A DNA stretch of 33,180 nt from an uncultured Nitratifractor sp. (GTDB lineage Bacteria; Campylobacterota; Campylobacteria; Campylobacterales; Sulfurovaceae): NCBI GenBank assembly GCA_913054475.1, contig CAJXJF010000012.1, forward strand, positions 1 to 33,180, in the 5' to 3' direction. Shown piece after piece: positions 21,918 to 26,568 of this stretch. Within the stretch, counting starts at the first letter, position 1. Every line of letters starts with the position of its first letter. The notes below the pieces were generated by a model that did no database searches, was not told the origin of the DNA, and saw only the letters and a list, made by a program, of their open reading frames with translations. A program made the position numbers and the translations under genes.

Positions 21918-21985
21918 ATCGTCGGCTAATAGGCAATATGCTAAAATCGGCGAAGCGAAAGAAAACAATCTGAATGGATGCGAGA

Positions 21986-22567
21986 ATGAAGTCTGATAAC
22001 AAGGAGATAGAAAGAGCGGTGGAGACTATCCTAAGAAGTCTGGGAGAGGACCCGGAGAGAGAGGGTTTGAAGAAGACTCCCCAGAGAGTGGCGAGGGCGT
22101 TGAAGTTTCTCACCGAAGGATACGGGATGGACCCCGACGAGATACTCAACTCCGCTCTTTTTAGTAGTAGCAACGACGAGATGGTGCTTGTGAGAGATAT
22201 CGAGTTCTACTCGATGTGCGAGCACCATATCCTCCCCATCGTAGGCAGAGCGCATGTGGCCTATATTCCAGATGGCAAGGTGGTGGGTCTCTCCAAGATA
22301 CCGAGAGTGGTGAATCTCTTCGCGAGAAGATTGCAGATACAGGAGCAGATGACGGAGCAGATAGCCGATGCCATCAGCAGGGCTATAGAGCCAAAAGGTG
22401 TGGCTGTGGTGATACAGGCGCGTCATATGTGTATGGAGATGAGAGGGGTGCAGAAGATAAACTCCACTACCGTCACCTCCGCCTTGCGGGGCCTCTTCAA
22501 GAGCGATATGCGAACGAGAAACGAATTTTACGATCTCATAAACGCCCATAGTCCTTCGAATTTCTGA
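21986..22567 (+). CDS. folE: GTP cyclohydrolase I
   Basis: Converts GTP to 7,8-dihydroneopterin triphosphate, the first step of folate (and often queuosine) synthesis; forms a cytosolic zinc-containing decamer. Visible motifs are [19 protein letters not shown], the zinc-ligand region [43 protein letters not shown] and the second zinc cysteine in [11 protein letters not shown]. The start is uncertain: the ATG at 21986 gives 193 residues with a weak GGA-type binding site, while an ATG four codons upstream (21974) has none. Both zinc cysteines are present, so it should be active. Confidence 0.95.
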
Positions 22568-22695: not shown

Positions 22696-23868
22696 ATGCA
22701 AAGAATCTATCTGGACAACAATCGCACTACGGCGGTGGACCCGCAGGTCTTGGCCGCGATGAAGCCTTTTCTCGAAGGCAGCTATGCAGACCTGCACGCT
22801 CTGCATTCGGATGGTGCCAGAAGTAGAAAAGCCTACAATGAAGCGCTGGAGAAAATCTACGCCACACTGCACGCGGGTGAGAAGGATAGTGTCTTTTTCT
22901 GCTCCGGGGCGGCAGAAGCCAACAGTACCGTCTTCTACTCCACCTATATCAATTTCATTCTCAGCGGCAGAAAGAACAGTATCATCATCGGAGAGAGGGA
23001 GCCTCTTTCGATTTTGCAGATTGCGGAGTTTCTGGAGTCTCAGGGGGTCAGGGTGCATAGAATCCCCATAAACGGTGATGGAGTGATAGAGCACGAGAGG
23101 CTTCTTGACTATATCACTCCCCGTACCGCTCTGGTCTCCGTCTCGATGGTGGATGGAGAGAGCGGCGCGATAGAGCCCATAGATGAGATAGCCGCCATAT
23201 GCAGGCGCTTCGAAGTCCCTCTCCACTGCGACGCTACACATGCCGTCGGCAAAATCGCTCTGGATTTGCAGAGTACGGAGTTGGACTATCTGACCTTCTC
23301 TTCGGAGACTCTGCACGCTCCCGCGGGGACGGGAGTGCTCTATATGAGAAAGGATAGCGAACTCCTTCCTCTGGTCTGGGGAGGCAGAAGCGAAGCCGAA
23401 GCCTACAGAGGAGGTCCACTCAACATAGCCGGAATCGCGGCACTGGGCAAGGCGGTGGAGCTCGCCGTTGACTCTCTTGAGTTCGAGATGGAGGATGTCA
23501 GAGATATGAGAGACATGCTCGAAGAGAGACTCAAAGAGATAGAGGGAGTGCATACACTCGTACCGTGGGCACTGCGTGTACCCAATACTCTGCTGGTAGC
23601 CATAGAGGGTGTGGAGAGTGAGGCGCTGCTGTACGAACTGGACAAGGAGGGGGTATCGGCCTATTCCTATACGGTCTATCCCTATGGAGAGTGGATACGC
23701 ACAGCTCTTCCCGAAGCTATGGGGCTGCAAAGGAGTCTGAACCATACTACCGTAGGTTTCGCCCTCAGTCGCTACAACAGCGAAGAGGAGATGGAGCGAA
23801 CCGCCGAAGCCGTAAAGAGAGCGGTGGAGTATCTCAGAAGCTTCATGCCATCCAAGGAGAGTCTATGA
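22696..23868 (+). CDS. NifS-like cysteine desulfurase homologue lacking catalytic residues (predicted pseudoenzyme)
   Basis: The 390-residue fold-type I protein aligns along its length with NifS: YLDNNRTT at the start, AVGKIALDLQ, LHAPAGTGVLYM, RVPNTLLVAI and GFALSRYNSEEEME at the end. The expected catalytic residues are missing. Where NifS has GHKLHAPKG, with the lysine that binds PLP, this has SETLHAPAG (Glu204-Thr205 for His-Lys). The PLP-stacking His is Arg101, and the NNETG motif is DGESG. The catalytic-cysteine loop (SSGSACTSG in NifS) is AYSYTVYPYG at 322-331 with no Cys. Asp179 is kept. Desulfurase activity is therefore not expected, although the ORF is intact. The stop overlaps the NifU-like start by four bases. 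A structural or regulatory role is inferred. Confidence 0.88.
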   Translation: MQRIYLDNNRTTAVDPQVLAAMKPFLEGSYADLHALHSDGARSRKAYNEALEKIYATLHAGEKDSVFFCSGAAEANSTVFYSTYINFILSGRKNSIIIGEREPLSILQIAEFLESQGVRVHRIPINGDGVIEHERLLDYITPRTALVSVSMVDGESGAIEPIDEIAAICRRFEVPLHCDATHAVGKIALDLQSTELDYLTFSSETLHAPAGTGVLYMRKDSELLPLVWGGRSEAEAYRGGPLNIAGIAALGKAVELAVDSLEFEMEDVRDMRDMLEERLKEIEGVHTLVPWALRVPNTLLVAIEGVESEALLYELDKEGVSAYSYTVYPYGEWIRTALPEAMGLQRSLNHTTVGFALSRYNSEEEMERTAEAVKRAVEYLRSFMPSKESL

Positions 23869-24824
23869 GCAAGAGTGAAATGTTGATGAATGGCTGTTGG
23901 GAGAGCTATCCTTTCAAGATAGAGATGTTGGCGAGAAAGCCGAAAAACCAGGGCGAGTTGAGAGCCGAAGATGCCGAAAAGCTCGAAGGAGAGCTTGTGA
24001 GTGTCGAGTATGGCTCCGTGGAGAGCGGAGAGTGGATACGCCTCTACTGTATAGTAGATAGCGACAAGAGAGTGGCGGCGTGCCGCTATCAGCTCTTCGG
24101 CCCGCCGGTGCTGAGGGCGGCGGCAGATATGGCGGCACTTTTGTGTCGAAACAAAACGGCAGCGGAGATAGAGAAGATAGATTACAGAAATCTGGAGTAT
24201 TTCCTCAGAGATCATCCCTCCAACCCGGCACTGCCCTCGAACAGAAACTATATAGTCAATTTCGTGGTCAACGCCCTGGAAAGGATGGTGGATAAGCTCG
24301 AGGGGAGAGAGAGGGAAGAGTCGGTACAGGTGTGCAAGTGCGCGGGTGTCGATCTCCTGACGATAGAGAAGGCGATTCGGGATTACGATATAGATTCGAT
24401 AGGGGGAATAGGGGACTATACGAAAGCGGGAGTGCTTTGCGGCAGATGTATATCCCACAGCTCGAATGCACCTGCGAGAGAGCACTATCTCGAAGATATA
24501 CTCAAAAAGGTCAGAAAGGAACTGCTCGAAGAGGGGAAAGCCAAATCCGATATTCCGGACAAACCGTTTTCGCAGATGAACCTCGAAGAGAAGAGGGCTG
24601 CCATCGAGGCGACGATAGACGAGTATATACGAGCAATGCTGGTGATGGATGGAGGCGATATGGAGATTATAGATATCAAGGAGAACGGTGTCAATACGGA
24701 CCTCTACATTCGCTATCTCGGAGCCTGTAGTGGCTGTGCGAGTGCATCTACCGGAACGCTATTCGCCATAGAGGGGATACTCAAACAGAAACTCGACCCC
24801 AATCTGAGGGTACTGCCTCTGTAG
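23865..24824 (+). CDS. NifU-like protein: degenerate scaffold domain, [2Fe-2S] domain, Nfu domain
   Basis: A 319-residue protein with the three-part NifU layout. The N-terminal IscU-like domain (about 10-145) follows the family pattern but lacks its cluster-ligand cysteines: FGCGTAIASS becomes FGPPVLRAAA (78-87) and the PPxKxHCS region becomes PSNRNYI (124-130). The BFD-like [2Fe-2S] domain keeps Cys157, Cys159, Cys192 and Cys195. The C-terminal Nfu domain keeps MDGGDMEIIDI and Cys288/Cys291 in GACSGCASAS. The ATG overlaps the NifS-like stop (ATGA), so the two are made together. It may carry or transfer clusters through the two intact domains without assembling them on the first. The start fits this protein type; the longer upstream frame only shadows the previous gene. 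Confidence 0.9.
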   Translation: MSKSEMLMNGCWESYPFKIEMLARKPKNQGELRAEDAEKLEGELVSVEYGSVESGEWIRLYCIVDSDKRVAACRYQLFGPPVLRAAADMAALLCRNKTAAEIEKIDYRNLEYFLRDHPSNPALPSNRNYIVNFVVNALERMVDKLEGREREESVQVCKCAGVDLLTIEKAIRDYDIDSIGGIGDYTKAGVLCGRCISHSSNAPAREHYLEDILKKVRKELLEEGKAKSDIPDKPFSQMNLEEKRAAIEATIDEYIRAMLVMDGGDMEIIDIKENGVNTDLYIRYLGACSGCASASTGTLFAIEGILKQKLDPNLRVLPL

Positions 24825-25108: not shown

Positions 25109-25744
25109 CTACTGAACGACTCTTTTGATAGCTTCGCTGCAGAGAAAGAGGCCGAAGGTGCCGGTGACTGCGGCGAACGATCCGCTCCCCTTGCAGTATG
25201 GGGTCTCCGGAGAAAAGACTACGGTGAAATTTCTCTCGAAGCGTCGTTTTTTCAGCTCGTTTCTGATTTTGCGGGCGAATGGATCTCCGTGACTCTTCCA
25301 TATGGACGCACTCTGCACTTTGGAGGCATCGATCCTTTTTGCAGACCCCATAGACATGAGGAGTTTTCTCCAGCACTTGAGAGCCAGCTCCACCTTTACC
25401 GCCCTGCTGTCGCAGGCGTCTATCACCAAGTCGTAGGCGTCGAAGTCGAAATTGGCGACCCACTCCGTATCTACCCGCAGCTTTATCGTCTCTATTCCGG
25501 GGTAGAGTTTCGAGAGGGTGCTCACCTTGCACTTGCCGATGGCATTGTCCGAACCAATCTGCCTGTTGAGGTTGCTCGTCTCGTAACTGTCGTAATCCAC
25601 TATCGTTATATGTCCGACACCGCTTCTATAGAGGCAGTCGAGAGCATAGCTTCCCACTCCTCCCACACCGATTATCAAAATTCTGGCCTTCGTGACTCTT
25701 TCGAACTTTTCGTCGAAGAGTTCACGGCATCTGGCGAATCTCAC
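25109..25744 (-). CDS. tcdA: tRNA threonylcarbamoyladenosine dehydratase (TcdA/CsdL type, ThiF/E1 fold)
   Basis: ATP-dependent enzyme that cyclises the t6A modification at tRNA position 37. The 211-residue sequence has the nucleotide site ARILIIGVGGVGSYALDCLYRSG, VDYDSYETSNLNRQ, DACDSRAVKVEL and the C-terminal GSGSFAAVTGTFGL. It lacks a ubiquitin-like or rhodanese extension, consistent with TcdA rather than ThiF or MoeB. The start is taken as GTG at 25744, overlapping the surE stop (GTGA), with GGGAAG five bases before; the longer upstream frame runs inside surE. In E. coli TcdA works with the cysteine desulfurase CsdA; no active desulfurase is seen here. Confidence 0.87.
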   Translation of the reverse strand: MRFARCRELFDEKFERVTKARILIIGVGGVGSYALDCLYRSGVGHITIVDYDSYETSNLNRQIGSDNAIGKCKVSTLSKLYPGIETIKLRVDTEWVANFDFDAYDLVIDACDSRAVKVELALKCWRKLLMSMGSAKRIDASKVQSASIWKSHGDPFARKIRNELKKRRFERNFTVVFSPETPYCKGSGSFAAVTGTFGLFLCSEAIKRVVQ

Positions 25745-26568
25745 AGCCACTTCCCGAGTGTCGGAATATCTTCGTAGGAGGTCATGTCGAGCTGTACGGG
25801 GGTTATAGAGACATAACCCTCTTTGACAGCTTCGAAATCGCTCTTGCGGCTCTCCTTTTTCGGATTCGCTGACCACTGCATCAGAGGGAGGCCTATCCAG
25901 TAATACTCCACCCCTCTGGGGTTGTAGTGGACCTGAGCATCGTTGCCGTAGGCTCTGTGTCCGGCATGTGTGATTCTGAAACCGCGATACTTGCCGTGCG
26001 ACACAGGAGGAACATTTATGTTGAGCAGCCTCCTCCCTTCGAGGGGGAAGCCATCTTCGAGTATCTTCTTTACGAGAGTGACGGTGGCATCCACGGCATT
26101 GCTGTAGTCTCCCGCATCCGGTTCGCTGCAGTCTCTCTCGCAGACCTGTGAGACGGCGATGGAGGAGATACCCTGCAAGACCCCCTCCATCGCCGCCGCA
26201 ACCGTTCCGGAATATGTGATATCCTCTCCCATGTTGGCTCCCCTGTTTATCCCCGAAACCAGCAAATCGGGTCTCTCTCCTTCACCATATATCTTTTTCA
26301 GAGCGAGGAATACGCAGTCCGAAGGGGTACCGTCGTCGAGTTTGTAGAAATCTTTCTCCACCTCTATGAAGCGTAGAGGTCGTGTAAGGGTCAGAGAGTG
26401 ACCTGAAGCCGATTTCTCTATAGTTGGAGCCACCGTTACGATATCTCCTATTTCGGAAAGGGCCTCTCTGAGCATGAGTAGTCCTGGAGCTTCGAAACCG
26501 TCGTCGTTGGTGAGCAGAATTCTGACTCTTTTTTTCTCCTGTGTATCGCCACTCTCTCTTTTGGCCAT
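25741..26568 (-). CDS. surE: 5'-nucleotidase SurE
   Basis: Metal-dependent nucleoside-monophosphate phosphatase of stationary-phase survival. The N-terminal motif LLTNDDGFEAPGL gives the metal-binding Asp pair, followed by PTIEKSASGHSLT and VSGINRGANMGEDITYSGTVAAAMEG, all standard. The ATG at 26568 (MAKRESGDTQEKKRVRIL) has GGGGTGGAG upstream and yields 275 residues; the open frame above it runs back through rsmD in antisense and is not part of the gene. It is divergent from rsmD with a 69-base spacer and coupled to tcdA. Confidence 0.96.
   Translation of the reverse strand: MAKRESGDTQEKKRVRILLTNDDGFEAPGLLMLREALSEIGDIVTVAPTIEKSASGHSLTLTRPLRFIEVEKDFYKLDDGTPSDCVFLALKKIYGEGERPDLLVSGINRGANMGEDITYSGTVAAAMEGVLQGISSIAVSQVCERDCSEPDAGDYSNAVDATVTLVKKILEDGFPLEGRRLLNINVPPVSHGKYRGFRITHAGHRAYGNDAQVHYNPRGVEYYWIGLPLMQWSANPKKESRKSDFEAVKEGYVSITPVQLDMTSYEDIPTLGKWL

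Follow-up and report, generated by a model that had tools for sequence, protein, structure and literature searches.

The window analysed here, the whole 33,180-nucleotide stretch of an uncultured Nitratifractor genome, carries on its plus strand folE (21974..22567), a nifS homologue designated nifS* (22696..23868), and nifU* (23865..24824), whose start overlaps the nifS* stop codon through a shared ATGA (23865-23868). The product of nifS*, referred to as pseudo-NifS, is a protein of 390 aa that has an intact frame and a NifS fold from which the catalytic residues are gone. NifU*, a degenerate NifU of 319 aa, comprises an IscU-like domain (23901..24302), a BFD-like [2Fe-2S] domain (24330..24458), and an Nfu domain (24603..24812). 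Convergent to nifU*, a ThiF/MoeB-like gene (TcdA/CsdL-type by eye) occupies positions 25109-25876 on the minus strand. In several other Nitratifractor species, the position just 3′ of nifU* is taken by a convergent gene whose rhodanese-like product apparently bears a signal peptide (L130:6020-6631, L026:8476-9084, L024:3017-3613), which is absent from the window.

Judged by sequence, the NifS-family homology of the 22696-23868 reading frame is beyond doubt, and the intact frame of 390 codons reported in the initial annotation is confirmed. The best curated family is NCBIfam TIGR03403 (nifS_epsilon, the Campylobacterota NifS), matched with 332.9 bits (E 2e-99), which falls far short of the 587.7-bit equivalog threshold. 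Among proteins of known structure, the nearest are the NifS of Hydrogenimonas (E 6e-86) and Helicobacter pylori (E 1e-78). An AlphaFold2 model built from 13 congeners (pLDDT 80.9) has the fold-type I class-V architecture and superposes nearly full-length on the structures of the NifS from H. pylori and the IscS from Archaeoglobus fulgidus.

In NifS chemistry, a lysine forms the aldimine with PLP and a cysteine carries the persulfide. Alignment of pseudo-NifS to H. pylori NifS and 70 canonical Campylobacterales NifS places neither a lysine nor a cysteine at these positions, as the initial annotation had claimed. Thr205 (23308..23310, plus strand) occupies the position of the aldimine Lys206, which is T, A, or P within Nitratifractor, while Glu204 replaces the neighboring histidine and Ala210 the lysine of the PKG motif. 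The catalytic-cysteine loop (residues 318-336; 23647..23703, plus strand) is rewritten from STGSACAS to YSYTVYPY, with Tyr328 in place of Cys328, and follows the consensus G(I/V)xAYSxTVxP(F/Y)GxW across Nitratifractor. The change of NNETG to DGESG noted earlier is likewise borne out by the alignment. The identification of Arg101 as the successor of the PLP-stacking histidine is wrong: His104 aligns with Pro103 (23002..23004, plus strand; SEVEHPS to SEREPLS), and Arg101 (22996..22998, plus strand) is a new residue at a canonical valine position. All 16 pseudo-NifS from Nitratifractor and from g2, its sister genus, carry this arginine; the copy in genome G078 does not. The arginine of the HTxxR motif (HTAIR), which we take to be the substrate-carboxylate ligand, is replaced by Gly354 (23755..23757, plus strand). 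Further replacements include Ala73 for the threonine of CATES and His182 for the glutamine of DAVQ; D179, the aspartate of the PLP pyridine nitrogen, is retained.

Canonical NifS have 137 positions with an invariance of 93% or more; at 42 of them the canonical residue is lost in every Nitratifractor sequence, and at 64 it is kept. The new residues R101, D153, S308, Y313, E314, T326, P329, G331, and G354 are invariant in the genus, and R10, E204, Y323, and W333 nearly so; in g2, position 10 is Ile and positions 326, 329, and 331 vary. A displaced loop cysteine (ACTVQ) was considered and rejected, as it occurs in only three close relatives, is shifted by three residues, and is not conserved. Sequencing error or chance as the source of the losses is excluded because the same losses recur in 13 species, and misassembly of the window genome is excluded by the complete 2,101,285-bp Nitratifractor genome G001 and by other congeners. 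It is thus well supported by these comparisons that pseudo-NifS is a conserved pseudo-desulfurase, a NifS fold devoid of the residues of PLP and persulfide chemistry, for which an automatic "cysteine desulfurase" label would be wrong.

In a survey of 150 genomes of the order Campylobacterales, exactly one orthologue of pseudo-NifS per genome is present in 13 of 13 Nitratifractor species, and all have lost both the lysine and the cysteine. The NifS sequences extracted from the survey are canonical throughout, with the exception of those from Nitratifractor, those from g2 (G051, G116, locus L033), and one of two copies in G078. All of these exceptions form one clade (support 100/99), nested within Sulfurovaceae-type NifS among otherwise canonical Campylobacterales NifS, and the g1+g2 clade is supported at 100/100. 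Because the tree carries a long-branch warning for L140 and L135, there is less certainty about a single origin that includes L140, the G078 copy, than about the clade of Nitratifractor (g1) and g2. A canonical nifS locus within the family (L201) shares the folE-nifS-nifU order; therefore, nifS* degenerated in place, and pseudo-NifS was inherited directly from canonical Campylobacterales NifS at an ancestral folE-nifS-nifU locus. The active-site loss is old and common to all Nitratifractor sequences examined. In G078, the degenerate NifS/NifU pair (L140, C3), whose BFD domain is deleted, is found beside a canonical pair of another NifS clade (L139, C35).

In close pairs, dN/dS (NG86) runs from about 0.04 to 0.095 for pseudo-NifS versus about 0.03-0.04 to 0.072 for canonical NifS, and pseudo-NifS is therefore maintained under purifying selection; wider pairs are near saturation and reach values up to 0.2. 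The hallmarks of a pseudogene are lacking in nifS*, as the frames are intact and the pattern in close pairs is not neutral. The shared losses, the single clade, the intact frames, and these ratios lend good support to the conserved pseudoenzyme that the initial annotation had proposed, and they answer the orthologue and selection checks it had suggested. When divergence is matched on SufB, the evolutionary rate of pseudo-NifS is nevertheless several times that of canonical NifS (61% identity at SufB 93%, compared with 87% at SufB 88%), so it is constrained less tightly than the enzyme, with the constraint partly relaxed. A single-contig genome, G050, harbors stop-ridden nifS and nifU pseudogenes (C1:53391-55071), with mostly intact copies in its congeners, and serves as an example of decay in the absence of selection.

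The neighboring NifU* is degenerate as well, a feature that the initial annotation overlooked. The IscU-like domain keeps its fold and has lost all three cluster-ligand cysteines (SCGDA to ESGEW, FGCG to FGPP, and HCSVM to YIVNF). The BFD-like domain retains its CxC…CxxC cysteines in Nitratifractor; they are lost in g2, and the G078 copy lacks the whole domain through a deletion. The Nfu domain preserves its CxxC, within GACSGCASASTGTLFAIEG, and is nearly identical to that of canonical NifU in the Nitratifractor, g2, and G078 copies. Both NIF catalytic centers were lost in parallel, with the Nfu carrier domain being the best preserved part. A nifU* gene adjoins pseudo-nifS at every locus whose neighborhood was read.

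A true NifS, the target of regulation in another early suggestion, was not found in any of the Nitratifractor genomes searched. Four independent queries (PF00266, TIGR01979, P0001, and alignment A1) retrieve no canonical class-V cysteine desulfurase, be it NifS, SufS, or CsdA, from the window genome (99.94% complete), from complete genome G001 (taken as N. salsuginis), or from the other Nitratifractor congeners and g2 genomes searched, and this absence contradicts the idea that pseudo-NifS regulates such an enzyme encoded elsewhere. The other matches to these queries, among those read, are AGXT-like, DegT-like, and AspC-like proteins, O-acetylhomoserine sulfhydrylase, and SerC (G033). Enzymes outside class V could still desulfurize cysteine in Nitratifractor.

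Other parts of the sulfur machinery persist. The suf operon reads sufB-sufC-sufD, with a DUF59-type gene added in G001 and G029, and the sufS expected in this operon is absent from the window genome, G001, and G029. A separate IscU-like protein has three conserved cysteines and is also found in relatives with canonical NifS; most of the genomes contain both it and SufBCD alongside pseudo-NifS. MnmA persists with a CxxC…C arrangement, and tRNA thiolation genes are therefore retained without a desulfurase. N. salsuginis takes S0 as a sulfur source (PMC3156401). In some related lineages, NifS has been lost altogether. Three genomes of family f18, genus g22 (G029, G046, G137), have SufBCD and the IscU-like protein with no NifS match, and further searches of G029 and G046 with TIGR01979 and PF00266 yield no evident cysteine desulfurase; g22 is apparently a second lineage without one. 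Six other genomes (G091, G023, G040, G098, G123, and G135; 90-99% complete) have no match to NifS, NifU_N, or SufB/D and encode one to three Nfu domains.

An account to which we give about an even chance combines these observations: a pseudo-desulfurase inherited in place, SufBCD clusters built from sulfide or S0, and a pseudo-NifS that docks NifU*. Nitratifractor, a group of deep-sea vent bacteria, would have given up cysteine as a source of sulfur. SufBCD, possibly helped by the separate IscU-like protein, would assemble its Fe-S clusters with sulfur that comes from sulfide or S0. By elimination, such a sulfide-driven SufBCD route is the most economical inference, given the lack of a desulfurase, the use of S0, and the precedent of sulfide-fed archaeal SufBC and SMS scaffolds. 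Pseudo-NifS would persist as a non-catalytic docking dimer to which NifU* binds through its IscU-like domain, and the [2Fe-2S] and Nfu domains held in this way would carry clusters or transfer electrons. The early proposal of a structural partnership with the NifU-like protein fits this account: the partnership is plausible in light of the fold, the ATGA overlap and adjacency of the genes, the purifying selection on the pair, and the parallel loss of the scaffold cysteines, with the binding itself being presumed. A bolder version, in which the genus has no cysteine desulfurase of any kind, runs SufBCD on inorganic sulfur, and has turned the dead NIF pair into a conserved, non-catalytic complex that has acquired a new pocket and a new loop and either carries clusters or senses sulfide/Fe-S, is tentative, and we consider it somewhat less probable than its opposite.

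The conserved new residues R101, D153, and Y323 and the PxG loop could form a new ligand site rather than serve docking alone. This leads to the main rival explanation, in which the former PLP cavity has been neofunctionalized to bind another ligand (e.g., a phosphate-bearing metabolite or a nucleotide), making pseudo-NifS a new enzyme or sensor. Its standing derives from the many switched positions that hold a single new residue genus-wide, among the 42 formerly invariant ones replaced, and the combination of long branches at the stem with low dN/dS afterwards also speaks for it. However, several of the new residues are not common to g2, no known ligand motif is recognized, and the parallel loss in NifU* suggests a cause shared by both proteins; a new pocket is possible yet rather unlikely. 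More doubtful is the idea that pseudo-NifS serves SufBCD or the separate IscU-like scaffold, rather than NifU*, as a regulator or an allosteric partner. The coexistence of these proteins with pseudo-NifS speaks for such a role, but their genes are not linked to pseudo-nifS in the genome, and genus g22 has both systems with no NifS at all.

The remaining explanations fare worse. Pseudo-NifS might be the decaying relic of an unneeded NIF system heading for loss, as its faster evolution, the complete loss of NifS in related lineages, and the stop-ridden G050 genes would allow; this explanation is already disfavored and quite improbable, since no stop or frameshift occurs across 13 species of large divergence, close-pair dN/dS is low, 64 of the 137 invariant positions are kept, and the new motifs are conserved. 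Least credible of all is a pseudo-NifS still active in sulfur transfer, either without PLP or through substitute residues, for although D179 is kept, the loop has no conserved cysteine, the pocket has no lysine, and the HTxxR arginine is lost.

Cysteine desulfurase is, to our knowledge, generally taken as indispensable in bacteria. Literature searches for Nitratifractor or Nitratiruptor together with cysteine desulfurase gave no match, those that paired cysteine desulfurase with "pseudoenzyme" turned up nothing of relevance, and the literature searched contains no NIF pair dead at both centers from bacteria in which no cysteine desulfurase can be detected. With its sole NifS and the scaffold both dead, the cultured type strain N. 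salsuginis makes it directly testable whether sulfide alone is enough for a bacterium to build Fe-S clusters and thiolate its tRNA.

Within the Campylobacterota, the NifS-NifU pairs of H. pylori and Hydrogenimonas share an orthologous fold, the gene order, and the NifU domain plan with the Nitratifractor pair, but they possess an active desulfurase and a three-cysteine scaffold. The nearest precedent is the IscS of A. fulgidus in complex with its partner IscU (PDB 4eb5, 4eb7, 4hvk; D199K mutant 4r5f). This IscS has lost the PLP lysine, has no desulfurase activity, and keeps its loop cysteine as a cluster ligand (PMC7585200). As in Nitratifractor, a NifS/IscS fold with a strong structural match has lost the PLP lysine (there replaced by Asp) and is found beside a scaffold partner, in this case in a sulfide-rich anaerobe. 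The two systems differ in that the A. fulgidus loop cysteine ligates the IscU cluster, whereas pseudo-NifS has no such cysteine for a role of this type and has lost the histidine and arginine too; likewise, A. fulgidus IscU binds a cluster and NifU* has lost all three of its ligand cysteines. The IscS1 of Methanosarcina acetivorans also lacks the catalytic lysine (PMC7585200); unlike pseudo-NifS, it keeps the STGSAC loop and is accompanied by an intact IscU1 and by true IscS2/3 in the same genome. Archaeal SufBC and SMS scaffolds are fed by sulfide and operate without a desulfurase (PMC12192291, PMC7585200). Nitratifractor resembles these SMS and methanogen SufBC systems in having a Suf-type scaffold and no cysteine desulfurase of class V that could be found, although sulfide is the sulfur source there and a presumed one here, and it differs from them in having SufB, SufC, and SufD along with a retained dead NifS-NifU pair. 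A sulfide-only Nitratifractor would be the bacterial counterpart of these sulfide-fed archaeal systems.
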